Of a stretch of 64,000 nt of DNA, positions 13,507 through 30,218 are shown piece after piece. The position numbers and the translations under genes are program-made. Within the stretch, counting starts at the first letter, position 1. The number at the start of each line of letters is the position of its first letter. This DNA comes from Cryobacterium psychrotolerans (GTDB taxonomy: Bacteria > Actinomycetota > Actinomycetes > Actinomycetales > Microbacteriaceae), in the NCBI RefSeq assembly GCF_900101115.1, contig NZ_FNFU01000007.1:62001-126000 (forward strand), read 5' to 3'. The notes under the pieces were generated by a model. It saw nothing but the letters and a program-made list of their open reading frames with translations, was not told the DNA's origin and searched no databases.

Positions 13507-14568
13507 CTAGTGCTGGAGGAGCGCGGCGATCACACGGGTGGCGGCGTGGCCGTCGCCGTAGGGCGCGGCATCCGTGGCGGCCGGCCAGGGCCGGGTGACC
13601 CCGGCGGCGATCTGCTCGCGCGAGGTTGCCAGCACGTTCCAGCCGAGGTCGATCGTCTCGACCCACTCGGTCTCCGTGCGCACGGTCGTGCACGGCACGC
13701 GCAGCAGGAACGCTTCCTTCTGCAGGCCGCCCGAGTCGGTCACCACGCCCGCGCTGGCCATGACGGCCGCAATGAGTTCCGAGTAGCCGAGCGGCTGATG
13801 CGGGATGAGCGTGCCCGTGGCCAGGTCGATGCCGAACTCCGCCGCCTTGGCGATCAGGCGCGGGTGGGCGAGCAGCACGACCGGGCGGTCGAGGGAGGAC
13901 AGGCTGTCGACGATCTCGGCCAGGCGGGCGGGGTCATCCGTGTTGTCGGCCCGGTGGAGCGTCGCGAGGTAGAAGCCGCCGTGCTCGAGGGAGAGGGACT
14001 CGAGCAGCTGGGAGGGCCCGCCCGCGGCGGCGTCGCGAACCTGGTAGAGCACGTCGGCCATGACGTCTCCGACGACGATGGAGCGGTCGGCGAGCCCCTC
14101 CGCGGTGAGGTGCGCGAGCGCCACCTCGGTGGGCGGGAGCAGCAGGTCGGCGGCGTGGTCGGTGAGCACCCGGTTGTGTTCCTCCGGCATCCGCCGGTTG
14201 AAGGAACGCAGCCCGGCCTCCAGGTGCGCGACCTTGTAGTGCAGCTTCACGGCGCTCAGCGCGGCGGCGACGGTGGAGTTCGTGTCCCCGTAGACGAGGA
14301 CCCAGTCGGGGTTGTGCTCGGTGAGCACGGCGTCGAGGGCACCGAGCATCGCTCCGGTCTGCACGCCGTGGCTGCCGGAGCCGACGCCGAGGTGCACGGT
14401 CGGCGCGGGGATGCTGAGTTCCTCGAAGAAGACATCGGAGAGCAGCGGGTCGTAGTGCTGACCGGTGTGCACGATGATGTGCTCCACCCCGGCCTCTGCC
14501 GCCGCCCGGGCGATCGGGGCAAGCTTGACGAATTGCGGTCTGGCACCTACGACACTCAGTAACTTCAC
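13507..14568 (-). CDS. non-hydrolysing UDP-sugar 2-epimerase, WbpI/WlbD-type or WecB
   Basis: A 353-aa protein with the full set of family motifs: GARPQFVKLAP at the N-terminus, HTGQHYDPLLSDVFF, YGDTNST, HLEAGLRSFNRRMPEEHNR, TDSGGLQKEA and RTETEWVET. It inverts C2 of a UDP-2-acetamido sugar through an elimination mechanism. SFNRRMPEE and SDVFFEELSIP are closer to the WbpI/WlbD group (UDP-GlcNAc3NAcA to UDP-ManNAc3NAcA) than to enterobacterial WecB, and the genes for the four preceding Wbp steps lie in this window. The start is GTG at 14568; the longer open frame upstream is low-complexity. Substrate choice is inferred. Its stop abuts the G-tract. Confidence 0.85.
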   Translation of the reverse strand: MKLLSVVGARPQFVKLAPIARAAAEAGVEHIIVHTGQHYDPLLSDVFFEELSIPAPTVHLGVGSGSHGVQTGAMLGALDAVLTEHNPDWVLVYGDTNSTVAAALSAVKLHYKVAHLEAGLRSFNRRMPEEHNRVLTDHAADLLLPPTEVALAHLTAEGLADRSIVVGDVMADVLYQVRDAAAGGPSQLLESLSLEHGGFYLATLHRADNTDDPARLAEIVDSLSSLDRPVVLLAHPRLIAKAAEFGIDLATGTLIPHQPLGYSELIAAVMASAGVVTDSGGLQKEAFLLRVPCTTVRTETEWVETIDLGWNVLATSREQIAAGVTRPWPAATDAAPYGDGHAATRVIAALLQH

Positions 14569-14605
14569 ACGGGCAATCCTAGGCGAGCGTGCCTGAGCGG
14601 CGTCT

Positions 14606-15856
14606 TCAGGCGCCCGTCGAGAGGAAGTGGGCGGCCAGGATGCGCGCGGAATAGCGGCCGTCGTGCACCTCGCCGACGAAGCGGGGACCCGCCTCGGCGA
14701 CCTGCCGGTAGTGGCCGGGATCGGCCACGACCCGGCGGATGGCCTCGGCCAGTTCGGCGGCGGTCGCCTGGACGATCGGCAGGGCCAGGCCCGTGGCCGC
14801 CTCCACCTCCGCGCGCACCTGCTCCGAGACATCCGAGACCACGAGCCGCCCGGATGCCAGCGCCTCGCACGCCGCCACCCCATAGCTGCCGATCCGGAAC
14901 TGGTCGACCACGATGTCCGCCGAACCGTACAGTTCGGGCATGTCTCCCGAGGGGACGCCCTCGACCCGGCGGTAGTCGATCAGGCCGTCGTCATGCAGCG
15001 CCGTCAGAATCGGGTCGACGAGGTCGGTGCCCTTGATGATCGCCTTGCTCGGAATGTGGACGACAACCGGGCGCGGGCCCGTCAGTGCCGGATTGGAGCG
15101 CTTCCACCGCTCGAGGTCGACGACGACCGGGAGCCAGAGGCCCTGCGCGACATCGAGCAGGAGGTCGGGAGTGGAGACGAAGACGGGGAGCCCGCACCGG
15201 TCGAGCACCCGCCGGTTCTCCCGGGCGCGCCGTTCCAGCTCGGGCGTCTGCGCGAGCAGGCCGTCGCGGTAGGGAGAGAACGGATTCGTCCGGGCGTGGC
15301 GGCTGGGCAGCCGGATGTCGGTTCCGTGGCAGACGAAGGCGGCCCGGACCCCGCTCCGTGCCAGGGCCGCCACCTCGCGCTCGACCGAGCCGAGGAAGGT
15401 GCCGAACAGCGGGCGCTCGGCCTCGATCAGCACGTGGGTGAAGCCCCGGCTGACCGCCCGGAGCTGGCGCCGCTGCCAGGATCCGGAGTACAGGTACACG
15501 TCTTTGTCGACCGGGTAGTCGGCCCGGAAGCCGAACGCGCCGGCGCCCTGGAAGCCCATGCTCACCGCCCCGGCGCCGGGCACATGCCGGGAGACCGCGC
15601 GGGCCCACTGGCCGCCCTGGCCGGCGAAATTGGCCGGGGCAACGTACAAGCGGATGTCCGTGTCGGGTGCCTGCGCCGGGCCGGGGATGCGGGCGCCGCC
15701 GCCCAGGACGGCCCGGTCGAGCCCCCGGAGCACCCGATCCGGCGCCCGGGACAGGAGACCGTCCGCGACCGCGTTGAGCCGGTCCGGCCAGGAGTGCCGC
15801 GAGCGCCAGATGCCCTGCAGCACCCGGCGCACGGCGTTGGTCAGGGGTTTCGGCAC
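14606..15856 (-). CDS. glycosyltransferase, GT4-like
   Basis: A 416-aa protein. The N-terminal half has APANFAGQGGQWARAV and AFVCHGTDIR. The C-terminal half has PSKAIIKGTDLVDPIL, YGSADIVVDQFRIGSYGVAACEALASGR, a GT-B nucleotide-sugar-binding arrangement with the conserved EALA segment. The HGTDIR and STPDL landmarks are shared with two other glycosyltransferases in the window (17787 and 30221), so the three are distant paralogs. It transfers a sugar from an activated donor to a growing glycan in the cytosol; donor and acceptor are unknown. It lies 37 bp upstream of the 2-epimerase gene on the same strand and diverges from the ABC transporter operon. Confidence 0.75.
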   Translation of the reverse strand: MPKPLTNAVRRVLQGIWRSRHSWPDRLNAVADGLLSRAPDRVLRGLDRAVLGGGARIPGPAQAPDTDIRLYVAPANFAGQGGQWARAVSRHVPGAGAVSMGFQGAGAFGFRADYPVDKDVYLYSGSWQRRQLRAVSRGFTHVLIEAERPLFGTFLGSVEREVAALARSGVRAAFVCHGTDIRLPSRHARTNPFSPYRDGLLAQTPELERRARENRRVLDRCGLPVFVSTPDLLLDVAQGLWLPVVVDLERWKRSNPALTGPRPVVVHIPSKAIIKGTDLVDPILTALHDDGLIDYRRVEGVPSGDMPELYGSADIVVDQFRIGSYGVAACEALASGRLVVSDVSEQVRAEVEAATGLALPIVQATAAELAEAIRRVVADPGHYRQVAEAGPRFVGEVHDGRYSARILAAHFLSTGA

Positions 15857-15912
15857 ACCTTGAAGCTAGCAGCATCGGCAAACCGGAAGACGGTCATTCC
15901 CGCTGAGCAAAC

Positions 15913-15918
15913 TAGGAT
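15913..15918 (+). promoter_or_regulatory. -10-like box of the 15988-31240 operon
   Basis: TAGGAT lies 70 bases before the ABC transporter ATG and immediately upstream of a tandem repeat. No convincing -35 box was found. The 5' leader would begin at about 15925. Confidence 0.35.
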
Positions 15919-15927
15919 GAGTCGGAT

Positions 15928-15969: not shown

Positions 15970-15987
15970 GGGAGGACCGCCCCCGCA

Positions 15988-17790
15988 ATGACCTTGTACA
16001 CAATTGTCCGAAACCTGCTCAATGCGCTTCCCGCCGGTTCGAAACGCTTCCTCGTGCGGTACACCGGCGCGACGATGGCCCTCTCGGTGCTCGACATCGT
16101 CTCCCTCGGCCTCCTCGCCGTCGTGCTCCCCGGGATGATCTCGAACGAGCCCACGACGATCCCGGTGCTCGGCGTCACCATCTCGGAGGTCGGCCAGTAC
16201 ACGGTCATCCTCGCGATCATCGCCGGCGCCATCGTGCTGAAGTCCCTGCTGAACATGCTCGTCGTGCGGATCGGCACTCGGCGCTTCGCGAACCACGAGG
16301 TCGCCATCGGCGACAAGCTGTTCGCCGCGTACATGAGCACGCCGTGGGTCGAGCGGCTCCGGATGAACTCGGCCGACATCGTGCGTTCGGTCGACGCCGG
16401 GGTCAACACGACCGTCTACGGTGTGCTCATCCCGGCGAGCAGCCTGGCCGGCGAGATCGTGTCCACGGCCGCGGTGCTGCTGGTGCTGACCATCGCCCAG
16501 CCGTCGACGGCCGCGCTCACGATCGTCTACCTCGGCCTGATCGCCCTGTTCCTCTCCCGGGTGATCACCCGGAAGGCCGTGCTGCACGGACGGCGCAACC
16601 GCGAGTACTCGTTCTACACCTCCCGCCTGATCACCGAAGCGGTCGCGACGCTCAAGGAGATCACGCTCCGCGGCGCCACGGCCGGCATCGGCCAGGCCGT
16701 CCACGGCAACCGGCTGGAGGCCTCGCGGTCGCGTGCCACCCTGTCCTTCCTGAGCGTGGTCCCGCGTTACATCCTCGAATCGGCACTGATCGTCGGCTTC
16801 ATCCTCGTCGGCGGCATGGGCTGGATCACCGGCGGCCAGACCGGCGCGGTCAGCGCGATCGCCCTGTTCGCCGTTGCCGGTTTCCGCATCGTCCCCTCGC
16901 TCACCCGGTTCCAGGCGATCCTGTCCCAGATGCACTCGAACGCGTCGTTCGCCGAACTGGTGCTGGACGAGATCGCCAAGGCGGAACAGCGCAAGATCGA
17001 GATCACCCCGGACGACACCGCCGTCCTCCCCCCGGCGTCGGAGCGCGACATCACGCTGAACGAGGTGAGCTTCAGCTTCCCCGATGCGGATTCCCCCGCA
17101 CTGGACCGGGTGAGCATGAACATCCCGGCCGGATCCCATGTCGCCATCGTCGGCGCCTCCGGCGCGGGAAAGTCGACGCTGGTCGACATCCTGCTCGGCC
17201 TGTTGATCCCGACGTCGGGCACCATCACGGTCGGTCAGCAGCCGCTCACCTCGGTGCTCAACGCCTGGCGCGCCTCAATCGGCTACGTGCCGCAGGAGGT
17301 TGCCCTCTTCGACGCGTCGATCGCCCAGAACGTGGCCCTCAGCTGGGACCCGGCGCACGTCGAGCCCGCGCGCGTGGTGACCGCCCTGGACCGCGCCCAG
17401 CTCAGTTCCATGGTCGACGCCAGGGAGGGCGGAGTCGAAGCCCCCATCGGCGAGCGCGGCATGGCCCTCTCCGGCGGCCAGCGGCAGCGGCTCGGCATCG
17501 CCAGGGCCCTCTACCCCGACCCCGGCGTGCTGGTCATGGATGAGGCCACCAGCGCCCTCGACACCGCGACCGAGGCCGCCGTCACCCAGGCGATCAAGGC
17601 CCTCGTCGGGCACCTCACCGTGATCACCGTCGCCCACCGGCTGGCGACGATCCGGCACGCCGACATCGTCTTCTTCTTCAAGGACGGCCGGCTCGAGGCC
17701 AGCGGCACCTTCCAGGAAGTCGTCAACGCCGTTCCCGACTTCGCCGCGCAGGCCGCCCTGGCCGGACTCTCCCCGGAGGCCCAGTCGTGA
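15988..17790 (+). CDS. ABC transporter, fused membrane and ATPase domains (MsbA/PglK-like)
   Basis: A 600-aa half-transporter. Residues 1 to about 320 form six membrane helices. The ATPase domain follows with Walker A GASGAGKST, Q-loop YVPQEV, signature LSGGQRQR, Walker B VLVMDEATSALD and H-loop VAHR, all intact. Such exporters work as homodimers and flip lipid-linked glycans or lipids. As the first gene of a glycan operon, it is most simply a lipid-linked-oligosaccharide flippase like PglK. AGGGAGG lies upstream of the ATG. It overlaps the next gene by 4 bases (GTGA). Confidence 0.9.
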   Translation: MTLYTIVRNLLNALPAGSKRFLVRYTGATMALSVLDIVSLGLLAVVLPGMISNEPTTIPVLGVTISEVGQYTVILAIIAGAIVLKSLLNMLVVRIGTRRFANHEVAIGDKLFAAYMSTPWVERLRMNSADIVRSVDAGVNTTVYGVLIPASSLAGEIVSTAAVLLVLTIAQPSTAALTIVYLGLIALFLSRVITRKAVLHGRRNREYSFYTSRLITEAVATLKEITLRGATAGIGQAVHGNRLEASRSRATLSFLSVVPRYILESALIVGFILVGGMGWITGGQTGAVSAIALFAVAGFRIVPSLTRFQAILSQMHSNASFAELVLDEIAKAEQRKIEITPDDTAVLPPASERDITLNEVSFSFPDADSPALDRVSMNIPAGSHVAIVGASGAGKSTLVDILLGLLIPTSGTITVGQQPLTSVLNAWRASIGYVPQEVALFDASIAQNVALSWDPAHVEPARVVTALDRAQLSSMVDAREGGVEAPIGERGMALSGGQRQRLGIARALYPDPGVLVMDEATSALDTATEAAVTQAIKALVGHLTVITVAHRLATIRHADIVFFFKDGRLEASGTFQEVVNAVPDFAAQAALAGLSPEAQS

Positions 17791-18755
17791 AGAAGGACCT
17801 GACGGTCACCCACCTCTTCGATGCGGCCGACGTCGGCAAGCTGCTCGCGGCGAAGGGCCGCGAGGCGGGTCTCGACTGGCGCTACCGCAACGTGCGCGAC
17901 CTGAGCCACGATTCGAACCCCGTGCGCAAGTACGCCGGCGCCCTGGCCTGGCATGCGGGCCGGATCATCGACCTGCTCCCCTCCGACCTGATCCACCTGC
18001 ACTACGGCAGGCGCACCTCGTACCTGCAGCTGTGGCCTCGTCGGCCGTACGTGCTGCACTTCCACGGCACCGACATCCGTCACCATTTCCACCAGCCCTA
18101 CGCGCACGACGTGATGCTGAGCGCCTCCGCCACCGCGCAGGCCGTGCTCTACTCGACGCCGGACCTCAGGGAACACGCCATCCAGGCGCGCGCGGATGCC
18201 GTCTACTTCCCGATCCCGGTTGACGTGCCGGCGCTGCCCGCCTGGCGTCCGGCCGAAACACCGACAATCGTGTTCGCCTCCCGCTGGGACGGCTCCAAGA
18301 ACGCCGACTTCCAGCTCGACATCGCCCGCGGCCTCGTCGCGCGGGCGGGCGGCGCCGTTCGCGTGCAGGGGCTGGACTGGGGAGACTCCGCCGGCGCCGC
18401 GCGCGAGGCCGGGGTGGAAATCATGCCCCGGATGCCCAAGCCCGAGTACCTCCGCTGGCTTGCCGGCGCGCATGTGGTCGCCGGCCAGGCCGCGGGCGTC
18501 GTGGCCACCAGCGAACTCGAGGCCATCGGCATCGGGGTGCCCGTCGTCATGCCGCTGCACCCGGCCTACGACACCACCACCCCCGTGATCACGGCGGAAA
18601 CCTCCGTGGAGCTCGTTACCGCGGCCCTGGCCGCGCTCGAACAACCCCAGGATGCCTCGCGGGCCCTCGGCGGGCCGGCCTGGATGCTGGGCACCCACGA
18701 CGCTTCGATGCTCGCCGCCCGGCTGGCGGACATGTACCGCGGCCTGCCGCTGTGA
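17787..18755 (+). CDS. glycosyltransferase, HGTDIR family
   Basis: A 322-aa protein starting at GTG inside the stop of the ABC gene. Landmarks are LIHLHYG, VLHFHGTDIR, VLYSTPDL, FASRWDGSKN and TSELEAIGIGVPVVMPL, a GT-B-like arrangement ending in the usual donor-side E-x-IG-GVP segment. It aligns by eye along its length with the protein at 30221 (VLHLHGTDIR, VVYSTPDL, SSELEALGIGVPVYVPL), so the two are paralogs at opposite ends of the operon. It likely transfers one sugar to the lipid-linked glycan; specificity is unknown. Confidence 0.75.
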   Translation: MKKDLTVTHLFDAADVGKLLAAKGREAGLDWRYRNVRDLSHDSNPVRKYAGALAWHAGRIIDLLPSDLIHLHYGRRTSYLQLWPRRPYVLHFHGTDIRHHFHQPYAHDVMLSASATAQAVLYSTPDLREHAIQARADAVYFPIPVDVPALPAWRPAETPTIVFASRWDGSKNADFQLDIARGLVARAGGAVRVQGLDWGDSAGAAREAGVEIMPRMPKPEYLRWLAGAHVVAGQAAGVVATSELEAIGIGVPVVMPLHPAYDTTTPVITAETSVELVTAALAALEQPQDASRALGGPAWMLGTHDASMLAARLADMYRGLPL

Positions 18756-18801
18756 CCCGATCGGCGGGCGACCAGGTGCAACACGCGAACGGACAGGACA
18801 G

Positions 18802-20148
18802 ATGACCAAGCAGGACGCGCCTCACCTTCTCTACGTCGCCTGGGGATACCCTCCCTGCCGCGGCGGAGGGGTCTACCGTGCCCTCGCGACGGCGAACGCC
18901 TTCGCGGAGAAGGGCTGGCGGGTCACCGTGCTGACGGCCAACCGCGAGACCTTCACGATGGGCACCGGGATCGACAGCACGCTGGAGGCCCAGATCCACC
19001 CGTCGATCACCGTCGTGCGCGTGCCGTTCACCAGCGGCGCCTACCAGACCGACATCCGCACCTGGTCCTTCTGGAGGGCCCACGCCCCGGAGCTGTGGAA
19101 CGGGTACCGCGCACGCAAGGACATCCGCTCGTTCCCCGAGGGGACCTACGGCGGCTGGCTCACTCCCCTCGAGGAGGCGGCCGTGCGCATCCACCGGGCC
19201 AACCCGGTCGGCCTCACCATCGGCACGGCCAACCCGCACGTCGACTTCACCCCCGGCCTCCGGCTGCACAAGGACTTCGGTGTTCCGTACGTCATGGACT
19301 ACCGCGACGCCTGGCAGCTCGACGTGTTCTCCGGCCGGCGACTGACCCCTCCCGGGAGCCCGCAGGACACCTGGGAGACCGAACTGGTCGAGAGCGCCAG
19401 GGAGGTCTGGTTCGTCAACGAACCCATCCGCGCCTGGCACGCGAAGATCTACCCGGCGCACGCCGAAAAAATGCACGTCGTGGCCAACGGGTACGACGCC
19501 GACATGGCGAAGTTCTCCGACCAGCCCCGCCCCGGCCGGGAGCAGGGGCTCGTGCTCGGCTACATCGGCACGATTTCCGCCCACGTGCCCATGCGGGAGC
19601 TCTTCGACGGCTGGGCCCTGGCCCGGAGCCGGTCCCCGCTGCTGGCCTCCTCCCGGATCGACATCTACGGCTACCTCGACCACTCCGGGATCCCGAACGA
19701 TCGAATCCTCGCCCTCCTCTCCGAGTTCCGTGAGCAGGGCATCCGGTACCTGGGCCCGGTCGGCAAGTCCGAGATCGCGGACACCTACCATTCCTTCGAC
19801 GCCCTCCTGCTCGTGCTCGGCACCGGCAAGTACGTGACGAGCGGGAAGGTCTTCGAGTACTGCGCCACCGGCCTTCCGGTCGCGTCCATCCACGACCCGG
19901 GCAATGCCGCCACCGAGATCCTTGAGGACTCCGCGGCCTGGATCGCGACACCGGATCTCAGCGCCGAGGCGATCGCGGCCACGCTCATCGCCCTGGCCGA
20001 ACGCGCCGTGAACCAGACGAGCAGCGAACGCCACGCCGTGCAGGACTGGGCCGCGCAGTACGAACGGTCCAACCAGCTGCTGCCCCGCATCCGGGCCCTC
20101 GGCGCCCCGCACGACACCACCGCGTCCGAAAGTGAGGCCCCGCGATGA
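18802..20148 (+). CDS. glycosyltransferase, GT4-like
   Basis: A 448-aa protein. It begins LLYVAWGYPPCRGGGVYRALATANAF, with the glycine-rich loop of GT-B enzymes. It continues with DYRDAW in the middle and VFEYCATGLPVASIHDPGNAATEIL in the donor domain. The ATG at 18802 is chosen because the protein then starts a few residues before the first beta strand; GGACAGGA precedes it. It overlaps the next gene by 4 bases (ATGA). It is a cytosolic or membrane-associated glycan assembly enzyme; sugar specificity cannot be read. Confidence 0.8.
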   Translation: MTKQDAPHLLYVAWGYPPCRGGGVYRALATANAFAEKGWRVTVLTANRETFTMGTGIDSTLEAQIHPSITVVRVPFTSGAYQTDIRTWSFWRAHAPELWNGYRARKDIRSFPEGTYGGWLTPLEEAAVRIHRANPVGLTIGTANPHVDFTPGLRLHKDFGVPYVMDYRDAWQLDVFSGRRLTPPGSPQDTWETELVESAREVWFVNEPIRAWHAKIYPAHAEKMHVVANGYDADMAKFSDQPRPGREQGLVLGYIGTISAHVPMRELFDGWALARSRSPLLASSRIDIYGYLDHSGIPNDRILALLSEFREQGIRYLGPVGKSEIADTYHSFDALLLVLGTGKYVTSGKVFEYCATGLPVASIHDPGNAATEILEDSAAWIATPDLSAEAIAATLIALAERAVNQTSSERHAVQDWAAQYERSNQLLPRIRALGAPHDTTASESEAPR

Positions 20149-20609
20149 ACCGCGTCGTACTCGTGAGCCCCTCCGGTTCGATCTTCAAGAGCCTGGCCGA
20201 ACTGGGCCTCGACGACCTGCCCGCCGATGCGCGACCCGAACTCACGGTGCTCTGCTGGGAGGCGGGAGCCGGCGAGGCGCCCAGCATCGCCGTGGGCCAT
20301 GACGATTCGGGCACCCTCTCCGGGCGGCTCCGCCTTAGCGTGCAGCGCGCCCTGTCCGGGTCGGCGGCCGGCCGCAACCTCTTCCGGCTCACCCCGTGGG
20401 ACGGCGGCAGCCGCATGTGGCGTGCGGTGCGACGGAGCCCCGCGGCCCGCCAGGCGCTGCGGGAGGCCGGGCTGATCGTCGCCGTCGAACGCGACTCGAT
20501 CCTCACCGCCTGGAAGAGCGTGCACTCCTCCCTCGCGCGGGACGCGGCCGCCGTGTACGGCCTGCCCTCCGCGCGCACCGTGCTCAAGGATTCCCGCCCG
20601 CATGGCTAG
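20145..20609 (+). CDS. unknown 154-aa protein in glycan operon
   Basis: Not recognised. It starts with MNRVVLVSPSGSIFKSLAEL, a likely beta strand and loop resembling the first Rossmann unit of GT-B glycosyltransferases. It ends with a segment (GLIVAVERDSILTAWKSVHS) that would fit the linker strand of such a half-domain, but no donor domain follows. It has no membrane helix, cysteine motif or signal peptide. Its start overlaps the previous gene by 4 bases and its end overlaps the next GT2 gene by 8, so it is firmly part of the operon. It could be an accessory subunit for a neighbouring transferase; that is a guess from position. Confidence 0.7.
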   Translation: MNRVVLVSPSGSIFKSLAELGLDDLPADARPELTVLCWEAGAGEAPSIAVGHDDSGTLSGRLRLSVQRALSGSAAGRNLFRLTPWDGGSRMWRAVRRSPAARQALREAGLIVAVERDSILTAWKSVHSSLARDAAAVYGLPSARTVLKDSRPHG

Positions 20610-21351
20610 CCCGGGCGTGCCGGCACACGCGCAGCAGACCCTGCTGGTGCTGCCCGCTTTCAATGAAGAGGGTTCGGTCGGGGAGGTGCTCCGCGAGATC
20701 GCGGAGGTGCTTCCCGGCATCCGCTGCCTCGTCGTCAACGACGGTTCGACCGACGCCACCCGGCAGCGCGCCCTCGACGCGGGCGCGACGGTTCTCGACC
20801 TGCCCTTCAACCTGGGCGTCGGAGGCGCGATGCGCGCCGGGTTCAAGTTCGCTGTCGCCCACGGATACCGCAACGTCGTTCAAATCGACGCCGACGGCCA
20901 GCACGACCCGCGCAATGTGCTCTCCCTGATCGACAAGCTCGACTCCAACGACATCGTGATCGGCGCGCGTTTCGCGGGCACCGGGGACTACGACGCCCGC
21001 GGCCCCCGGCTCTGGGCGATGGTCGTGCTGGCCAGGATCATCAGCCGGATCAGCCGTGTTCCGCTCACCGACGTGACCAGCGGCTTCAAGGCCAACGGCC
21101 CGCGCGCCGTCGCGCTGTTCGCCGAGCACTTCCCGGCCGAGTACCTCGGTGACACGCTCGAGGCCCTGGTGATCGCCGCCGGCGCCAAACTGCGGATCAG
21201 CCAGGTTCCCGTCTCCATGCGCCCGCGCCAGGCCGGCAATCCCTCGCACCATCCGTTCAAGGCGGCCGTCTACCTGGGGCGAGCGTGCATCGCGCTCCTC
21301 TTCGCGTTGATGCGCCCGCATGTGAAGGTCCCGCCGGAGGTCACCACGTGA
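20602..21351 (+). CDS. family 2 glycosyltransferase, polyprenyl-phosphate-sugar synthase type
   Basis: A 249-aa GT-A protein. LLVLPAFNEEGSVGEVL, VVNDGSTDATRQ, FNLGVGGAMRAGF and QIDADGQHDP (metal-binding DAD) are the motifs of the dolichol-phosphate-mannose-synthase-like subgroup, followed by TDVTSGFKA. The C-terminus carries one hydrophobic stretch. This subgroup often moves a sugar onto undecaprenyl phosphate, with a small membrane partner. The next gene encodes such a partner (DUF2304) and overlaps by 4 bases. The donor sugar is unknown. Confidence 0.85.
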   Translation: MASPGVPAHAQQTLLVLPAFNEEGSVGEVLREIAEVLPGIRCLVVNDGSTDATRQRALDAGATVLDLPFNLGVGGAMRAGFKFAVAHGYRNVVQIDADGQHDPRNVLSLIDKLDSNDIVIGARFAGTGDYDARGPRLWAMVVLARIISRISRVPLTDVTSGFKANGPRAVALFAEHFPAEYLGDTLEALVIAAGAKLRISQVPVSMRPRQAGNPSHHPFKAAVYLGRACIALLFALMRPHVKVPPEVTT

Positions 21352-21734: not shown

Positions 21735-21798
21735 CGCTCGGCGCCTCAAAAAAACCAGTGAACGGTGCCGCGAAAGCGCCGTGAAAGGATTCCTCTCC

Positions 21799-22389
21799 GT
21801 GACTACCATTGCCGCAACCGCTGATGTCGCCGACAACGCCGTCCTCGGCGAGGAGTGCAAGGTCTGGCACCTGGCCCAGGTGCGCGCAGACGTTCGGATG
21901 GGCGACAACTGCATCGTCGGACGCGGCGCCTACATCGGCACCGGCGTGACCATGGGCGACAACTGCAAGGTGCAGAACTACGCACTGGTGTACGAGCCCG
22001 CGACCCTGGCCGACGGCGTGTTCATCGGCCCGGCCGTCGTGCTCACCAACGACACCTACCCGCGGGCGATCAGCCCCGACGGGTCGCTCAAGAGCGCCCA
22101 CGACTGGACCCCGGTCGGGGTCACCATCGAGGAGGGGGCCTCGATCGGCGCCCGCGCGGTCTGTGTGGCCCCGGTCACCATCGGCCGCTGGGCCACCGTC
22201 GCCGCCGGCGCGGTCGTCACCAGGGACGTCCCGGCGTTCGCGCTGGTCGCCGGTGTCCCGGCGCGGCGCATCCGCTGGGTCGGCAAGGCGGGGGTTCCGC
22301 TCGTCCAGGACGCCGACGCGTGGGTCTGCCCGGAGACCGGCACCCGCTACATCGAAGAGAACAACGTATTGCGAGAGGCACTGTCATGA
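21799..22389 (+). CDS. left-handed beta-helix acetyltransferase, WbpD/WlbB-like
   Basis: A 196-aa hexapeptide-repeat protein. The repeats run from ADVADNAVLGEECKVWHLAQV through IGTGVTMGDNCKVQN and IGPAVVLTNDTYPRA to VTIGRWATVAAGAVVTRDVP. A cysteine-bearing C-terminal tail reads WVCPETGTRY. WbpD/WlbB enzymes acetylate the 3-amino group of UDP-GlcNAc3NA with acetyl-CoA. The next two genes encode the matching aminotransferase and dehydrogenase. The start GTG at 21799 is preferred because AAAGGA lies 9 bases upstream; an in-frame GTG at 21781 would add six residues. It overlaps the next gene by 4 bases. O-acetyl or other acyl acceptors are possible. Confidence 0.8.
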   Translation: MTTIAATADVADNAVLGEECKVWHLAQVRADVRMGDNCIVGRGAYIGTGVTMGDNCKVQNYALVYEPATLADGVFIGPAVVLTNDTYPRAISPDGSLKSAHDWTPVGVTIEEGASIGARAVCVAPVTIGRWATVAAGAVVTRDVPAFALVAGVPARRIRWVGKAGVPLVQDADAWVCPETGTRYIEENNVLREALS

Positions 22390-23474
22390 CCGAATTCATC
22401 CCGGCCGCACGCCCGATCATCGGCGACGAGGAGCGCGCCGCGGTCGACGCCGTGCTGCTTTCCGGCATGCTCGCCCAGGGCACCGAGGTAGCCGAATTCG
22501 AACGCGAGTTCTCTGACGTGCTCCTCGACGGCCGCGCCGCGGTCGCCGTGAACTCCGGCACCTCCGGGCTGCACCTCGGCCTCCTCGCCGCCGGCGTCGG
22601 CCCCGGCGACGAGGTCATCGTGCCCTCCTTCACCTTCGCGGCCACCGCCAACTCGGTCGCCCTGACCGGTGCCACCCCCGTTTTCGCGGACATCGAACCC
22701 GATCACTTCTGCCTGGACCCGAAGGACGTGGCGCGGAAGATCACCTCCCGCACCGTGGGCATCATGCCGGTGCACCTGTACGGGCACCCGGCCGACGTCG
22801 CCGCCCTCGGCGACCTCGCCACCGAACACGGCCTCGGCCTGTTCGAAGACGCCGCGCAGGCGCACGGCGCCGCCGTCGACGGCCGGAAGGTCGGCACCTT
22901 CGGCACGTTCGGGATGTTCAGCCTCTACCCGACGAAGAACATGACCAGCGGCGAGGGCGGCATGGTCTCGACCGGCGACCCCGAGGTCGAACGGCGCCTG
23001 CGGCTGCTCCGCAACCAGGGCATGGAGAAGCAGTACGAGAACGAACTCGTCGGCTTCAACGCGCGGATGACGAACATCCACGCCGCCATCGGCCGCGTGC
23101 AGCTGCGCAAGGTGCTCGGCTGGACCGCGACCCGGCAGCGGAACGCCGCGTTCCTCGACGCGAACCTCGAGGGTGTGAAGACTCCCCTCGTCGGGCCCGG
23201 CATCACGCACGTCTACCACCAGTACACGATCCGGGTCACCGACGACCGTGACGGATTCGCCGCCGCGCTGCGCGAGGAATTCAACATCGGATCCGGGGTG
23301 TACTACCCGATCCCGAACCACCGCCTGCCCTCGTTCAACCTCGTCTGCGATCTGCCCGAGACCGAGCGGGCCTCCCGCGAGGTGCTCTCCCTGCCGGTGC
23401 ATCCGTCGCTGTCCGAAGACGACCTGGAGCGCATCGTCACCGCCGTCAACTCACTTGCGAAGGCAGGATCATAA
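22386..23474 (+). CDS. DegT/DnrJ/EryC1 PLP aminotransferase, WbpE/WlbC-like
   Basis: A 362-aa type I-fold sugar aminotransferase. NSGTSGLHLGL binds the PLP phosphate, EDAAQAHGA carries the Asp that contacts the pyridine nitrogen, and SLYPTKN holds the Schiff-base lysine. VYYPIPNHRLPSF is near the C-terminus. It is expected to add an amino group from glutamate to a 3-keto-UDP-sugar made by the next enzyme. The ATG at 22386 overlaps the acetyltransferase stop by 4 bases. Together with its neighbours it forms the WbpB/D/E trio. A 4-keto-sugar substrate cannot be excluded from sequence alone. Confidence 0.87.
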   Translation: MTEFIPAARPIIGDEERAAVDAVLLSGMLAQGTEVAEFEREFSDVLLDGRAAVAVNSGTSGLHLGLLAAGVGPGDEVIVPSFTFAATANSVALTGATPVFADIEPDHFCLDPKDVARKITSRTVGIMPVHLYGHPADVAALGDLATEHGLGLFEDAAQAHGAAVDGRKVGTFGTFGMFSLYPTKNMTSGEGGMVSTGDPEVERRLRLLRNQGMEKQYENELVGFNARMTNIHAAIGRVQLRKVLGWTATRQRNAAFLDANLEGVKTPLVGPGITHVYHQYTIRVTDDRDGFAAALREEFNIGSGVYYPIPNHRLPSFNLVCDLPETERASREVLSLPVHPSLSEDDLERIVTAVNSLAKAGS

Positions 23475-24466
23475 TGGCCAACCTCCGCATCGGACTCATC
23501 GGCCTCGGCATGATGGGCCGCCACCACGCCCGCGTCATCCGGGAGCTCGACGGCGTCGACCTGGTCGCCATCGCCGACCCCCAGGGTGACCCGCACGGCG
23601 TCGGCGGCAGCCTCGCCGTGCTGCCCACGGTCACCGAACTCATCGCCGCGGGCATCGACGCCGCGGTCGTGGCCGTGCCGACCGGCTACCACGAAGCCGT
23701 CGCGCTCGAACTGGCGGACGCCGGGGTGCACACCCTGGTCGAGAAGCCGATCGCGAGCACCGGCGACGCCGGGGAACGCATCGCCGCCGCGTTCGAGCAG
23801 CGCGGGCTGGTCGGTGCCGTCGGCCACATCGAGCGCTTCAACCCCGCCCTGCAGGACCTGCGCCGCCGCCTGGCCGCCGGCGAGCTCGGCGACATCTACC
23901 AGATCGCCACCCGCAGGCAGGGCCCCTTCCCGGCCCGCATCGCCGACGTGGGCGTGGTCAAGGACCTCGGCACGCACGACATCGACCTGACCGCCTGGCT
24001 CGCGCAGTCGCCGTACCGCAGCGTGTCCGCCCACACCACGACGCGCAGCGGCCGCCCGCACGAGGACATGGTGTCCGCGATCGGCCAGCTCGCCAACGGC
24101 ATCATCACCAACCACGTCGTCAACTGGCTCTCCCCTCTCAAGGAGCGAGTCACCGTGGTCACGGGCGAGCGCGGATCGTTCGTCGCCGACACCCTCAGCG
24201 CCGACCTCACGTTCTTCGCGAACGGCACCATCAACACCGAGTGGGAGTCCGTCGCGGCGTTCCGCGGCGTCACGGAGGGGTCGATGACCCGCTTCGCCCT
24301 GACCAAGCGGGAGCCGCTCCGCTCCGAACACGAGGCGTTCCGCGACGCGATCCTCGGCATCTCCCAGAACATCGTCACCATGCGCGAGGGTCTCGCGACG
24401 CTGCGCGTGGCCGAAGCGGTCGTCGAGTCGGCGATCACGGGAGAAACTCGTCTGCTGACGGACTGA
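23474..24466 (+). CDS. Gfo/Idh/MocA oxidoreductase, WbpB/WlbA-like
   Basis: A 330-aa protein. The N-terminal Rossmann fold has GLGMMGRHHARV and VAIADP. The strictly conserved EKP appears in LVEKPIA, GHIERFNPA follows, and DLGTHDIDL carries the family histidine. WbpB/WlbA oxidise C3 of UDP-GlcNAcA with NAD so that the aminotransferase can act. The start overlaps the previous stop by one base (TAATG) and the next gene follows after 3 bases. Context with an acetyltransferase and a DegT enzyme supports the diamino-sugar role; the family itself is broad. Confidence 0.85.
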   Translation: MANLRIGLIGLGMMGRHHARVIRELDGVDLVAIADPQGDPHGVGGSLAVLPTVTELIAAGIDAAVVAVPTGYHEAVALELADAGVHTLVEKPIASTGDAGERIAAAFEQRGLVGAVGHIERFNPALQDLRRRLAAGELGDIYQIATRRQGPFPARIADVGVVKDLGTHDIDLTAWLAQSPYRSVSAHTTTRSGRPHEDMVSAIGQLANGIITNHVVNWLSPLKERVTVVTGERGSFVADTLSADLTFFANGTINTEWESVAAFRGVTEGSMTRFALTKREPLRSEHEAFRDAILGISQNIVTMREGLATLRVAEAVVESAITGETRLLTD

Positions 24467-24469
24467 GCC

Positions 24470-25648
24470 ATGGCGAAACCTACACGTGTGGTCATCGCCA
24501 CGCGGCTGTTCCCGCCGGAGGTCAGTGCGGGCGCATTCCGCCTGAACGAACTTGCCTCGGGATTCCTTCGCCGCTCCTGCCGGGTGCGCGTCATCACGAC
24601 GACCCCGCCGGCCACGGCCCCGACCGCGGCCGCTGACCGCGACGACCTCGAACTGTCGCGCTTCCCCGTGCTGCGCGACGCCGGCGGCAACGTGCGCGGG
24701 TACCTGCAGTACCTGAGCTTCGACATCCCGCTCGTGCTGCGGTTGCTCGTGTCCCGGTACGACATCGCCGTGTCGGAGGCGCCCCCGACAACGGGAGCGG
24801 TCGTGTCCGTGATCAGCAGGCTCAAGCGCCGCCCGTACGCGTACTACGCGGCGGACATCTGGACCGATGGCCTGACCGCGCTCAAGTCGCCGCGACTGGT
24901 CATTTCCCTGATGCGCGCCTTCGAGGGCCATGTGATGCGCCACGCCTCCACGGTGCTGTCGATCTCCGACGAGGTCACCGTGCGGATCCGCGAGTTCGGC
25001 GTCGACGCCGCGAAGATCGCCACCGTCGGCAATGGCGTCGACACCACGGTCTTCACCCTCGACGGACCCGTCGCCGAGAGCACACACCCCTACCTGATCT
25101 ACACCGGCACGATGTCGGAATGGCAGGGCGCGGACATCTTCGTGCGCGCGATGCCGCGGGTGCTCGCGCGGTTCCCCGACGCTCAGCTGCGCTTCTTCGG
25201 CCAGGGCGCGTCCGAGGCCGAGCTGCGCCGGCGAGCCGCCGAACTCGCGCCGGGAAGCGTGTTCTTCGGCGGTGTGATCGCGCCGAGCGAGGCGGCCACC
25301 TGGCTCCGCGGGGCCGCCGCGGCCCTGGTGAGCATCGCCCCGGGCCTGGGTTATGACTTCGCCCGGCCCACCAAGACGTACGCCGCGGCCGCCTGCGGCA
25401 CCGCCGTCGTTTTCGCCGGCGTGGGCAGCGGCGCCGCCCTGGTGCGCGACAACGGGCTGGGCGAACACGCCGAGTTCACGGTCGACGCCGTCGGCGACGC
25501 GATGATCCGCGCCCTCGAAGCGCACCAGTCCGGGGAAGCCGCCCGCCTGCGCGCGCACCGCGTGGCCTGGACCGAACAGAACGCCTCCCTCCGCGCCGTC
25601 GGCAACCTGGCCGCCGAAGCCGTGCTCACCGGGGGCGGGCTGTCGTGA
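24470..25648 (+). CDS. GT4 glycosyltransferase (WbuB-like)
   Basis: A 392-aa GT-B protein. It begins VVIATRLFPPEVSAGAFRLNELA. The donor domain has TVGNGVDTTVF, YTGTMSEWQGADIFVRA, RFFGQGA and the final DFARPTKTYAAAACGTAVVFAG. The two-domain layout and lengths match the WbuB/GT4 group. It adds a hexose or hexosamine derivative to the growing glycan. Because it follows the diamino-sugar trio by 3 bases, it is the best candidate to transfer that sugar; this is an inference from order only. Confidence 0.83.
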   Translation: MAKPTRVVIATRLFPPEVSAGAFRLNELASGFLRRSCRVRVITTTPPATAPTAAADRDDLELSRFPVLRDAGGNVRGYLQYLSFDIPLVLRLLVSRYDIAVSEAPPTTGAVVSVISRLKRRPYAYYAADIWTDGLTALKSPRLVISLMRAFEGHVMRHASTVLSISDEVTVRIREFGVDAAKIATVGNGVDTTVFTLDGPVAESTHPYLIYTGTMSEWQGADIFVRAMPRVLARFPDAQLRFFGQGASEAELRRRAAELAPGSVFFGGVIAPSEAATWLRGAAAALVSIAPGLGYDFARPTKTYAAAACGTAVVFAGVGSGAALVRDNGLGEHAEFTVDAVGDAMIRALEAHQSGEAARLRAHRVAWTEQNASLRAVGNLAAEAVLTGGGLS

Positions 25649-26908
<1,260 letters not shown>

Positions 26909-26933
26909 CCCGGCGCGGCCGGAGGCGTGACTC

Positions 26934-28895
26934 GTGAGCTGGTTTGAGGCGATCCCCGCGCTGACCGTGGCCGTGCTGACGGTCGTGCTGATCGGCGCGC
27001 CGTTCGCGTGGGCGGTCGGCGCGCGGGGCATCACGTTCCTCGGCCTGAGCGTCGCGAGCTCCGTGTCGGCGGTGGCGCTCTCCTCGGTCGTTGCGCCCCT
27101 GGTCGGGATGCCCTGGAACCTCCTGGCCCCGTTCCTGGTCTCCCTGCCGCTGGCCGCGATCGGGTTCGCGCTGCGCCGCTTCTTCGTGCTGCCGCCGCTC
27201 CCAGGGCCCCGGGAGTGGGGCTCGGTCTTCGGCTGGAGCCTGGCAGCCGTCGCCCTCGGCGGCACCCTGGTCGCCTTCTCGGTGCTGCCCGCCATCGTTC
27301 AGGCGGACACCCCGTCGCAAACCTACGACGCGATCTTCCACCTCAATGCGGTGCAGTGGGTGCTCGACACCGGGGACGCGTCACCGATCAACATGACGAT
27401 GTCGACCCCCGGTTCGAGCGGTTCCTTCTACCCGACGCCGTGGCACGCCATCGTCGCCCTCGTGGTGCAGCTCACCGGCGCCGGGGTCGTGGTGGCCACG
27501 AACGCCGTCGCCGTGGCCACTGCGGCGTTCGTCTGGCCTGTGGCCTGCATCTTCCTGGCCAGGGCGCTCTTCGGCCCTGGGCACCTCGCCCTGGTGCTGA
27601 CCGGGGCCATGAGCGCGGCCTTCGCGTCGTTCCCGATCGTGCTGCTGGGCTTCGGGGTGCTCTACCCCAACCTGCTCGCGGTCGCGCTGGTCCCGATCGC
27701 TCTCGGGCTCCTGGTCATGGCGCTGAGGCAGGACTCGGCCGCCACGCTGAAGCCGGTGGCGCTGTGGCTGCTCACCGCCTGGGTGGTGCTGGGGATGAGC
27801 ATCGCCCACCCGAACGCCCTGTTCAGTCTCTTCGCCCTGAGCGCGCCGCTGCTCGTGCAGGCCTGCGTCGTCTTCGTGCGTCGCCGTCGCCGGGAACCCC
27901 GCTCCGGCGGCCCGATCGCGGCTGCCGTCGTTGCCCTGGCGGCCGCATTCGCCCTCGAAGCCTTCCTCTGGACCCGGGTCGCGACCAGCGACAACGCCTG
28001 GCTGCCCGACCGGCCGTTCCTGGTCTCGATCGCCGAGGCCGCCCTGGCCGGTCCCGGCAACCTGACCCTCGGCTTCGCCGCGTCCATCGTCGTGCTCACC
28101 GGCGTGGTCATCACCCTGTTCCGTCGACGCCTCCTCTGGCTCAGCGCCTCCTGGGCCGTCGCCGTGCTGCTGTTCGCCGTCGCGAACGGCGGCCCCGAGG
28201 GCGCTCTCCGCGACGCGATCACCGGTCTCTGGTACAACGACTCCTTCCGCCTCGCCGCGCTCCTGCCCATTGTGGCGGTGCCCCTGGCCGTGCAGGGACT
28301 GCTCGCGATCATCCGCTTCGCGCAGCGCGGGGCGGATCGTATACTGCCCGGAAGCCGGACCCCGGCCGCCACCCGCGGCGTCTCGGCCGCCGTGGCCGTC
28401 GCCCTGGTGGCCATCGCGGTGGCCGGCACCCAGCTCGGCAACATCCAGGCCGCGCGCTCCAACCTGGCGGCGACCTACCGGATGAGCGACACGAGTCCCC
28501 TGCTCGGCACCGCGGAACGGGATTTCCTCGCCGAGGTCGGCCGGATCGTGCCCGAGGGCGGCGTCATCGCCGGCAACCCGTGGAACGGCAGTTCGCTGGT
28601 CTACGCGTACACCGGCCGCGCCGCCCTCTTCCCGCACGTCGGCGGCAGCTACCCCCAGTCGTACCGCGACCTCGCCGAAGGCCTGGCCCAGGGCACCCCG
28701 GCCGCCTGTGCCGCCGCCGCCGCCCTCGGCGTCGACTACGTGCTCGACTTCGGTGACCGGTACGTCTTCGCCGAAGACGAGCGGGCCGACCAGTACGGTG
28801 GCATCACCGCCGTCGAAGACTCCAGCGTGCTCACGGTTGTCGCCGAGGACGCTGGCTTGAAACTGTACGAAGTAACCGGTTGTGCTGCCCCGTAG
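26934..28895 (+). CDS. large polytopic membrane protein, DUF6541-like (GT-C-type candidate)
   Basis: A 653-aa protein with a dozen or more hydrophobic helices. After the first four helices comes a conserved-looking loop (TPSQTYDAIFHLNAVQWVLD) in which acidic residues could serve like the DxD/DD loop of GT-C glycosyltransferases. A soluble C-terminal part contains EGGVIAGNPWNGSSLVYAYTGR and GVDYVLDFGDRYVF. This layout matches actinobacterial DUF6541 proteins, whose biochemical role is not established. The start GTG at 26934 has GGAGG 8 bases upstream. Extracytoplasmic glycosyl transfer from a polyprenyl-phosphate donor would suit the preceding GT2/DUF2304 pair, but that is inference. Confidence 0.75.
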   Translation: MSWFEAIPALTVAVLTVVLIGAPFAWAVGARGITFLGLSVASSVSAVALSSVVAPLVGMPWNLLAPFLVSLPLAAIGFALRRFFVLPPLPGPREWGSVFGWSLAAVALGGTLVAFSVLPAIVQADTPSQTYDAIFHLNAVQWVLDTGDASPINMTMSTPGSSGSFYPTPWHAIVALVVQLTGAGVVVATNAVAVATAAFVWPVACIFLARALFGPGHLALVLTGAMSAAFASFPIVLLGFGVLYPNLLAVALVPIALGLLVMALRQDSAATLKPVALWLLTAWVVLGMSIAHPNALFSLFALSAPLLVQACVVFVRRRRREPRSGGPIAAAVVALAAAFALEAFLWTRVATSDNAWLPDRPFLVSIAEAALAGPGNLTLGFAASIVVLTGVVITLFRRRLLWLSASWAVAVLLFAVANGGPEGALRDAITGLWYNDSFRLAALLPIVAVPLAVQGLLAIIRFAQRGADRILPGSRTPAATRGVSAAVAVALVAIAVAGTQLGNIQAARSNLAATYRMSDTSPLLGTAERDFLAEVGRIVPEGGVIAGNPWNGSSLVYAYTGRAALFPHVGGSYPQSYRDLAEGLAQGTPAACAAAAALGVDYVLDFGDRYVFAEDERADQYGGITAVEDSSVLTVVAEDAGLKLYEVTGCAAP

Positions 28896-28928
28896 CCCGG
28901 GACAGTGAGAGAAGAAGAGAGAATTCCT

Positions 28929-30218
28929 GTGAAGATCGCCGTCATCGCGCTGGGCAAGATCGGCCTGCCCCTCGCCGTCCAGTTCGCGTCCAAGGGCCAC
29001 GAGGTGGTCGGGGTCGACGTCAACCCCCGCACCGTCGAACTCGTCAACGCCGCCCAGGAGCCGTTCCCCGGCGAGGCGCACCTCCAGGAGCTTCTCTCCG
29101 AGCTGGTCCCCGCCGGCCGGCTCCGGGCCACGACCGACTATGCGGATGCCGTCACCGGCGCCGACGCCGTCGTGCTCGTCGTTCCCCTCTTCGTGGACGC
29201 CGACGCGCGCCCCGACTTCGGCTGGATGGACGCCGCAACCCGCTCGCTCGGCGAGCACCTGACGCCGGGAACCCTGGTCGCCTACGAAACCACCCTCCCC
29301 GTCGGCACGACCCGCAACCGCTGGAAGCCCATGCTCGAGGAAATCTCCGGCCTCACCGAGGGCAGCGACTTCCACCTCGTGTTCTCCCCGGAGCGCGTGC
29401 TGACCGGCCGGATCTTCGAGGACCTCCGCAAGTACCCGAAGCTCATCGGCGGCCTGTCCGACGCCGGCACGGCCAGGGCGATCGAGTTCTACGAAGCGGT
29501 GCTCGACTTCGACCCGCGCCCCGAGCTCCCCCGCCCGAACGGTGTCTGGGACCTCGGCTCCGCCGAGGCATCCGAGCTGGCCAAGCTCGCCGAAACCACG
29601 TACCGCGACGTGAACATCGGCCTGGCCAACCAGTTCGCCCGCTTCGCCCAGAAGTCCGGGATCGACATCTACAAGGTGATCGAAGCCTCCAACTCGCAGC
29701 CGTTCAGCCACATCCACCAGCCCGGCATCGCCGTCGGCGGACACTGCATCCCCGTGTACCCGCGCCTCTACCTCTGGAACGACCCGGATGCCACGGTCGT
29801 GCGGGCCGCACGCGAGGCGAACCTGGCCATGCCCGAGTACACCATCGGCCTGCTCGAGGGCGCCTACGGCGACGTGCGCGGCGCTCGCGTGGTCGTGCTG
29901 GGAGCCGCCTACCGCGGCGGCGTGAAGGAGACCGCCTTCTCCGGTGTGTTCGACACCGTGAAGGCCCTCGAGTCCCGCGGCGCCGAGGTGCTCGTGCACG
30001 ACCCCCTCTACGACGACTCCGAGCTCGTGTCCCTCGGGTTCACCCCGTACCACCTCGGCGAGCCCGTCGACGCCGCCGTGGTGCAGGCGGACCACGCGGA
30101 GTACCGCACGCTCGGCGCCGCCGACCTGCCCGGAATCACCGCGTTCATCGACGGCCGGCGGGTCAGCTCGGCCGAGGCCTGGGCCGGCGTGACCTACCGG
30201 GTCATCGGACGGCCGTAA
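28929..30218 (+). CDS. nucleotide-sugar 6-dehydrogenase, WbpA/WecC-like
   Basis: A 429-aa UDP-glucose/GDP-mannose dehydrogenase-family enzyme. The N-terminal Rossmann site reads KIAVIALGKIGLPLAVQFA; VGVDVNP and SPERVLTGR follow. The catalytic cysteine lies in GGHCIPVYP (Cys273), and a second Rossmann domain carries VVVLGAAYRGGVKETAFS. It oxidises C6 of a UDP-N-acetylhexosamine to the uronic acid in two NAD-dependent steps. FSPERVLTGR and the Pro in CIPVYP fit the UDP-GlcNAc/ManNAc group better than UDP-glucose dehydrogenase. The start GTG at 28929 follows an AG-rich ribosome site; an in-frame ATG lies 24 bases farther upstream. It would be the first enzyme of the UDP-ManNAc3NAcA route. Confidence 0.9.
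   Translation: MKIAVIALGKIGLPLAVQFASKGHEVVGVDVNPRTVELVNAAQEPFPGEAHLQELLSELVPAGRLRATTDYADAVTGADAVVLVVPLFVDADARPDFGWMDAATRSLGEHLTPGTLVAYETTLPVGTTRNRWKPMLEEISGLTEGSDFHLVFSPERVLTGRIFEDLRKYPKLIGGLSDAGTARAIEFYEAVLDFDPRPELPRPNGVWDLGSAEASELAKLAETTYRDVNIGLANQFARFAQKSGIDIYKVIEASNSQPFSHIHQPGIAVGGHCIPVYPRLYLWNDPDATVVRAAREANLAMPEYTIGLLEGAYGDVRGARVVVLGAAYRGGVKETAFSGVFDTVKALESRGAEVLVHDPLYDDSELVSLGFTPYHLGEPVDAAVVQADHAEYRTLGAADLPGITAFIDGRRVSSAEAWAGVTYRVIGRP

Follow-up and report, generated by a model that had tools for sequence, protein, structure and literature searches.

A two-block locus of Cryobacterium psychrotolerans with the five enzyme types for UDP-ManNAc3NAcA, and a candidate order of their steps

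Genes of the locus

In the window analysed here, a stretch of 64,000 nucleotides of Cryobacterium psychrotolerans (contig NZ_FNFU01000007.1, positions 62,001 to 126,000, of a genome of 3.25 Mb in 45 contigs), domain and family model scans found, between positions 13507 and 30218, all five enzyme types of the set for UDP-2,3-diacetamido-2,3-dideoxymannuronic acid (UDP-ManNAc3NAcA): a 2-epimerase, an acetyltransferase, an aminotransferase, a 3-dehydrogenase of the Gfo/Idh/MocA family (Gfo below) and a nucleotide-sugar 6-dehydrogenase. An earlier, sequence-only reading of this DNA had placed them at the same positions, and the start of the epimerase gene is corrected here to 14568. Sequence comparison makes it likely that these five genes make UDP-ManNAc3NAcA, because of the subtype and residues of the epimerase, the 59-72% identity to a Utr-type locus, and the nuclear magnetic resonance (NMR) data for Streptomyces griseus given in the available part of PMC13274773. 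We also regard it as reasonably likely that the sugar serves an anionic wall glycan and is made by a route in which Gfo, aminotransferase and acetyltransferase (hereafter the trio) act first, followed by 6-oxidation and then by epimerisation.

The genes form two diverging blocks with about 130 bases between them. The minus-strand block consists of the epimerase and a glycosyltransferase, and the open reading frames of the plus-strand block (15988-30218) overlap or are spaced by at most 54 bases, two of their starts being uncertain. The acetyltransferase, aminotransferase and Gfo genes are consecutive in the plus-strand block, and the 6-dehydrogenase is its final clear gene. The two transcription units of the sequence-only reading survive as two strand-wise blocks which would correspond to such units; a sigma-70 scan, of low information for a G+C-rich actinobacterium, returned zero promoter-like sites (0.5 expected by chance). 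The genes are as follows.

13507-14568, minus strand: UDP-GlcNAc3NAcA-type 2-epimerase, WbpI/UtrH-like (Pfam Epimerase_2, 298 bits; 8sxv; active-site residues)
14606-15856, minus strand: glycosyltransferase, in the same block as the epimerase (Glycos_transf_1, 28.6 bits)
15988-17790, plus strand: ABC exporter with fused permease and ATPase, opening the plus-strand block
17787-18755, plus strand: weak family-4-like glycosyltransferase (26 bits, below the cut-off of 28.5)
18652-20148, plus strand: glycosyltransferase, its real start downstream of 18652
20602-21351, plus strand: family 2 glycosyltransferase (GT2), polyprenyl-phosphate sugar synthase-like (PpgS-like; PpgS model 99 bits, cut-off 370)
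21285-21734, plus strand: small DUF2304 membrane protein (86.7 bits), its real start probably downstream of 21285
21781-22389, plus strand: left-handed beta-helix N-acetyltransferase, WlbB/WbpD/UtrJ-like (hexapeptide), starting at a GTG at 21781 or 21799
22386-23474, plus strand: DegT-family (DegT/DnrJ/EryC1) sugar aminotransferase (395 bits), candidate for the WbpE/UtrA role
23474-24466, plus strand: Gfo/Idh/MocA 3-dehydrogenase, UDP-GlcNAc 3-dehydrogenase-like and not WbpB, candidate for the UtrB role
24470-25648, plus strand: glycosyltransferase of family 4/1
25703-26908, plus strand: UDP-galactopyranose mutase (above the curated cut-off)
26934-28895, plus strand: DUF6541 membrane protein (514 bits)
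28929-30218, plus strand: nucleotide-sugar 6-dehydrogenase with three domains, candidate for the UtrD role

The five enzymes and their relatives

The most likely start of the epimerase gene is the GTG at 14568-14566 on the minus strand, and the query sequences used here carried 15 additional residues upstream of it. Compared with solved structures, the protein scored 360 bits with the UDP-2,3-diacetamido-2,3-dideoxyglucuronic acid (UDP-GlcNAc3NAcA) 2-epimerase of Thermus thermophilus (8sxv), 255 bits with the UDP-N-acetylglucosamine (UDP-GlcNAc) 2-epimerase 4neq and 110 bits with WecB (1f6d). According to the available text of PMC10622841, an Arg contacts the 3-hydroxyl in UDP-GlcNAc 2-epimerases and the UDP-GlcNAc3NAcA enzyme has Trp307 in its place; there, too, Tyr96 replaces the His or Gln of UDP-GlcNAc enzymes, and Ala18 their typical Leu or Met, the latter being reported for one solved enzyme and not necessarily type-defining. 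Trp307 and Tyr96 are present in the window epimerase and in 42 of 42 other orthologue rows from actinobacterial loci (one record is titled Sporosarcina), and of the 22 ligand and active-site positions compared, 19, these two included, have the same residue as the T. thermophilus enzyme (8SXV and others), the differences being Leu18 for Ala, Ala for Lys245 and Leu for Val265. Forty further rows, one of them the Utr-type row, show the same Trp/Tyr/Leu combination as the window, and Ala18 occurs in seven rows (these Ala-Tyr-Trp rows include locus L089 twice, and L083 has no position 18). In the WecB-family paralogue encoded elsewhere in this genome, positions 307 and 96 are occupied by Arg and Leu, respectively. 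Because of Trp307 and Tyr96, and with Leu18 as the discordant position, handling of a bulky 3-acetamido substrate is supported for the window epimerase. The SFNRRMPEE motif, from which the protein had been placed in the WbpI/WlbD group, is indeed present and the placement holds, Trp307/Tyr96 being the better signature. An identity as plain WecB was rejected on the 360 versus 110 bits and on these two residues, and at the sequence level the protein does not group with WecB.

The Gfo protein had been read as WbpB-like, a label that we dropped. Neither P. aeruginosa WbpB (3oa2) nor its T. thermophilus relative (3o9z) was among the 60 matches shown of 68 at E <= 0.001, nor among the top 60 of the 132 obtained with a 35-row family profile, whereas the Gfo protein of the Pseudomonas frederiksbergensis wbpA-B-D-E-I cluster, used as a positive control, matched them with 574 and 298 bits, respectively. 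BLAST of the window protein against the WbpB of that cluster (L088) gave zero matches at E <= 10, and against two other WbpB homologues a best E of 0.047. The best model was that of the UDP-GlcNAc 3-dehydrogenases (NF040723), with 207 bits over nearly the full length; the same model gave 149-302 bits for the 11 actinobacterial relatives scanned, 51 and 61 for two other Gfo proteins of the source genome, and 25-26 for three WbpB homologues. The best solved relative was 7bvj (89 bits alone, 142 with the family profile), which we take, with 7bvk, to be GnnA of Acidithiobacillus, and the closest named one among the matches listed was an Agromyces protein, 83% identical. The protein thus appears to belong outside the WbpB/WlbA family, and to be related to, without being a member of, the UDP-GlcNAc 3-dehydrogenases, like which it may work.

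As for the other three enzymes, the acetyltransferase kept its WbpD-like assignment: its closest solved relative was 3mqg (130 bits over residues 8-198; runner-up, 77), presumably WlbB and entitled in the PDB as a lipopolysaccharide biosynthesis acetyltransferase, and it is 41% identical to its counterpart in the P. frederiksbergensis cluster. The aminotransferase had been called WbpE-like; its fold family is certain (395 bits) and its subgroup is not, WbpE (213 bits) ranking behind 7b0d (275), 2oga (257) and the perosamine synthetases (229-232). The WbpA-like label proposed for the 6-dehydrogenase is weak and was not borne out. The protein is 31% identical to the P. frederiksbergensis WbpA and 32% to a TviB, and it was not assigned to WbpA; the TviB model gave 119 bits where 592 are needed. 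Among equivalog models it scored highest, at 262 bits, on that of the archaeal UDP-ManNAc dehydrogenase, whose cut-off is 750, and among solved structures on 4r16 (229 bits).

Compared as a set, the WbpA-B-D-E-I enzymes (plasmid copy of P. frederiksbergensis, L088) would give the same product and are 47% (epimerase), 41% (acetyltransferase) and 36% (aminotransferase) identical to those of the window, in contrast with the unmatched 3-dehydrogenase, the distant 6-dehydrogenase (31%) and a step order that is probably different. A closer likeness is to the Utr locus of S. griseus, described in the available text of PMC13274773 as two oppositely directed blocks with TarIJ and TagF nearby, the functions of UtrA, B, D, H and J being assigned there by prediction; the window has the same five types, two opposed blocks and teichoic acid genes near them. 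The identities come from the Utr-type locus of another genome of the same class (G243), not from the S. griseus sequence itself. In one region of G243 we found counterparts of all five window enzymes, with aminotransferase, Gfo, a TarS-linker protein and 6-dehydrogenase following the utrA-D order, the epimerase and acetyltransferase lying on the opposite strand, and identities of 59% (aminotransferase), 62% (Gfo), 72% (6-dehydrogenase), 63% (epimerase) and 64% (acetyltransferase). Neighbours such as RodA, NDK and DUF4233 genes presumably mark G243 as Streptomyces-like. Unlike in Utr, the acetyltransferase gene of the window adjoins that of the aminotransferase, and the window carries galactofuran genes (the mutase and a GlfT2-like gene) as well as the PpgS-like, DUF2304 and DUF6541 genes; the TarS-linker domain (PF22181) was found in none of the window proteins scanned.

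Co-occurrence of the genes and order of the steps

In the proposed pathway, the Gfo protein would oxidise C3 of UDP-GlcNAc, the DegT enzyme would aminate it, the acetyltransferase would complete UDP-GlcNAc3NAc, the 6-dehydrogenase would convert this into UDP-GlcNAc3NAcA, and the 2-epimerase would invert C2 to yield UDP-ManNAc3NAcA, which would then probably go into a wall polymer that is of teichuronic type or contains galactofuran. The enzyme types, the substrate type of the epimerase and the link to Utr come from sequence and comparison; every catalytic step is what we infer from them, above all the action of the trio before 6-oxidation.

A scan by Gfo alone, with one genome per species, yielded 506 candidate stretches, 475 of which encode a relative. 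From these the 80 best loci were retained, with up to 10 kb on each side and gene presence judged by bit-score thresholds. These loci held the aminotransferase in 80, the acetyltransferase in 79, the 6-dehydrogenase in 50 and the epimerase in 41 cases. The five enzyme types cluster far beyond chance, since retrieval by Gfo only still returned the other four at high rates. That the trio acts instead on a 4-keto sugar, supplied by the WbpM-like dehydratase at 56192-57580, is hardly credible: such a PF02719 protein does lie about 32 kb away, and among NCBIfam models the aminotransferase scores highest, though well short of the cut-offs, with PseC (252 bits) and with the 4-amino-4-deoxy-L-arabinose enzyme (248), but the aminotransferase adjoins Gfo in all 80 loci, with the aligned parts 3-87 bases apart, and WlbB is the first match of the acetyltransferase. 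The sequence-only reading had named this substrate as the outcome that would speak against it, and we found little in the sequences that points there.

In 50 genomes taken from these 80 loci, each selected for its trio, the presence of the other two genes was followed genome-wide. The 6-dehydrogenase orthologue was found in 28 genomes (more than 710 bits, everything else being at about 200 or below) and the epimerase orthologue in 20 (more than 462 bits, the rest below 209), all of them among the 28; eight genomes had the 6-dehydrogenase without the epimerase, and none showed the converse. The 22 genomes without a 6-dehydrogenase orthologue all retain a complete trio. Three trio genomes (Arthrobacter citreus, G705 and G708) had no PF03721 protein above cut-off; in A. 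citreus the search found none while 13 of 14 control genomes were positive, and G705 and G708, two of the eight genomes with Gfo alone in the order sample described below, are rated 100% complete.

These counts bear on two further arrangements. One would have the epimerase and the 6-dehydrogenase make UDP-ManNAcA (the N-acetylmannosaminuronic acid) while the trio serves another diamino sugar. The epimerase does pass the curated wecB model (243 bits, cut-off 210) and does lie on the opposite strand, yet Trp307 replaces the Arg that reads the 3-hydroxyl, the epimerase orthologue always occurs with the 6-dehydrogenase (20 of 20, among the 50 trio-chosen genomes), and a likelier UDP-ManNAcA set is found elsewhere, namely a WecB-family gene with the Arg and two PF03721 genes 10-20 kb away on the same contig; we therefore hold two products to be very improbable. 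A separate uronic acid pathway is probably encoded in that region of the source genome (contig C20, 31630-52033), where about 20 kb contain a second WecB-family epimerase, its Arg being of the UDP-GlcNAc type, and the two further 6-dehydrogenase-family genes. The other arrangement keeps the trio first and places 2-epimerisation before 6-oxidation, as in WecB then WecC, with UDP-ManNAc3NAc between UDP-GlcNAc3NAc and UDP-ManNAc3NAcA. It would suit a 6-dehydrogenase whose top matches are the archaeal UDP-ManNAc dehydrogenase and 4r16, but it is improbable in view of the eight trio genomes (out of 50) that have the 6-dehydrogenase but lack the epimerase orthologue, with no case of the reverse, of the GlcNAc3NAcA homopolymer reported by NMR for Streptomyces antibioticus in the available part of PMC13274773, and of the acid substrate described for the closest solved epimerase.

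The more serious alternative gives the same product in the Pseudomonas order, the 6-dehydrogenase acting first on UDP-GlcNAc, the trio then acting on UDP-GlcNAcA (the 6-oxidised form), and the Gfo being another branch of the family that has taken the WbpB step. It fits the 37 of 50 loci with both genes in which the aligned 6-dehydrogenase ends 73-223 bases ahead of the aligned acetyltransferase, as well as the view of the S. griseus authors, in the available text of PMC13274773, that the pathway resembles the one in P. aeruginosa. However, a trio requiring UDP-GlcNAcA should never occur without the 6-dehydrogenase, and complete trios do exist without a protein of that family above cut-off, which argues that the trio acts on UDP-GlcNAc; the window Gfo, moreover, resembles the UDP-GlcNAc 3-dehydrogenases and not WbpB. 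On these comparisons we consider the Pseudomonas order unlikely, though much less so than the arrangements above, and it is fairly likely that the trio works before 6-oxidation.

Because the trio-only genomes proved to be one clade, the order was then sampled evenly, with 297 genomes. Gfo was present in 104, the 6-dehydrogenase in 99 and both in 96; the three genomes with the 6-dehydrogenase alone are fragmented (72-92% completeness). The eight genomes with Gfo and no 6-dehydrogenase, a minority of the 104, bear five family codes. Seven of their loci were fetched, all but that of the badly fragmented G473, and six hold the whole trio; G574 has a divergent Gfo with no acetyltransferase nearby. 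In a sample of the phylum (396 genomes), the 6-dehydrogenase occurred in 16 (at least 437 bits), 15 of them with a Gfo orthologue and the sixteenth (G344) with a divergent Gfo that fits NF040723 and has trio relatives near it. Five phylum genomes had Gfo without a strong 6-dehydrogenase match: in G173 and G090 a 6-dehydrogenase or a fragment of one adjoins Gfo, G308 has a complete trio, G212 showed no aminotransferase within 17 kb, and G080 showed Gfo alone within 4 kb. A distant lineage (f42, five genomes) carries Gfo, 6-dehydrogenase and epimerase in about 10 kb of a single contig, side by side in four, together with a distant acetyltransferase (34-39%); BLAST found no aminotransferase in the single 17-kb stretch examined.

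Several points weigh against the trio-first reading or against its product. On the Gfo tree (a quick method with many weak forks; 100 rows, three of them in no group), the 22 trio-only genomes group as one clade and therefore count as about one event, and the Fisher p of 1.3e-7 for the pattern is uncorrected for kinship. Weaker 6-dehydrogenase relatives (81-200 bits), a possible source of an acid substrate, exist in 21 of these 22 genomes, and the clade may have switched substrate. The joint presence of Gfo and 6-dehydrogenase in 96 of the 104 order genomes is also what the Pseudomonas order predicts. NF040723 is an archaeal model, and its cut-off of 450 was reached by none of the scored Gfo proteins (window, 207). 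Leu18 of the epimerase is the UDP-GlcNAc-type residue, so that one of the three substrate positions disagrees, and no utrE-like 4-epimerase was seen among the G243 proteins scanned. As regards a switch of substrate, the columns separating the trio-only from the other trios numbered 7 of 330, 6 of 360 and 0 of 181 (66 and 22 rows, or 57 and 22 for the acetyltransferase; differing majority residues at thresholds of at least 80% and 90%).

Two side observations were made on these loci. In two genomes of one genus (G666, L121, 7858-12604; G708, L122, 8136-12882), both without the 6-dehydrogenase orthologue, the trio is followed by an epimerase-like gene and then by a PpgS-like gene 58% identical to that of the window. 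The epimerase-like protein is distant (29%), with His96, Ser307 and changed allosteric residues 240 and 242; His96, near C6, is a neutral-substrate residue and the Arg for the 3-hydroxyl is gone, which would fit UDP-GlcNAc3NAc, although so distant a protein may do something else. In addition, L054 (titled Vibrio cholerae 35D) and L023 (Sporosarcina beigongshangi group) fall among Arthrobacter on the Gfo tree, and these assemblies are probably mislabelled or contaminated.

Wall context and meaning

Wall-related genes lie on both sides of the locus in the window. The principal ones are listed here.

11230-13143, plus strand: GlfT2-like galactofuranosyltransferase
37558-39132, plus strand: IspD-SDR fusion (SDR, short-chain dehydrogenase/reductase), TarIJ-like, for a CDP-ribitol-type teichoic acid precursor
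41329-44145, minus strand: GT2 with a CDP-glycerol glycerophosphotransferase (TarF/TarL-type) domain
62521-63885, minus strand: LytR-CpsA-Psr ligase

The teichoic acid genes lie 7-34 kb downstream of the locus (37558-63885), much as TarIJ and TagF are found near the S. griseus Utr locus; besides the TarIJ-like fusion and the LytR-CpsA-Psr ligase, they include an ABC-2 exporter pair and two proteins that carry glycerophosphotransferase domains. Judged by these neighbours, the sugar could plausibly enter a wall polymer. The PpgS-like GT2, DUF2304 and DUF6541 genes (20602-21734 and 26934-28895) recall the mycobacterial Rv3631, Rv3632 and Rv3630, which we take to be a polyprenyl-phosphate amino sugar set, and by this analogy they may serve to make a polyprenyl-linked diacetamido sugar. 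The WbpM-like PF02719 protein (56192-57580) and an SDR epimerase (55344-56195) adjoin the ABC-2 exporter, and a further modified sugar may be made there. A protein of 1065 residues with 14 LGFP repeats lies beside the cluster (32395-35592).

The novelty that the sequence-only reading implied, that of an actinobacterial wall containing an acidic diacetamido sugar, did not stand: the available text of PMC13274773 reports, by NMR, a teichuronic-acid-like wall polymer with ManNAc3NAcA in S. griseus, and describes ManNAc3NAcA or GlcNAc3NAcA polymers as umbrella-toxin receptors in Streptomyces. Such a sugar is already published, and the step order is the part that differs. The Pseudomonas and Bordetella route invoked by that reading holds for its product, which is well supported, and departs from our proposal in the family of the 3-dehydrogenase and in the likely order of the steps.

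The comparisons could also be read as an actinobacterial ladder, for and against which we see the chances as even: the trio, leading to neutral UDP-GlcNAc3NAc, would be the core, and the 6-dehydrogenase and then the 2-epimerase would be optional rungs, with GlcNAc3NAc, GlcNAc3NAcA and ManNAc3NAcA as the end sugars. Lineages on the first rung (A. citreus, Paenarthrobacter aurescens) would then place neutral GlcNAc3NAc in a galactofuran-linked wall glycan; all 22 trio-only genomes have a mutase gene no more than 10 kb from the trio, and 21 of the 22 a GlfT2-like gene. Among the open papers listed by our searches, nothing usable turned up on such diacetamido acid sugars in the walls of Arthrobacter. 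If the ladder is true, the textbook route to UDP-ManNAc3NAcA has an alternative, and the genome would predict which of the three sugars a strain carries.

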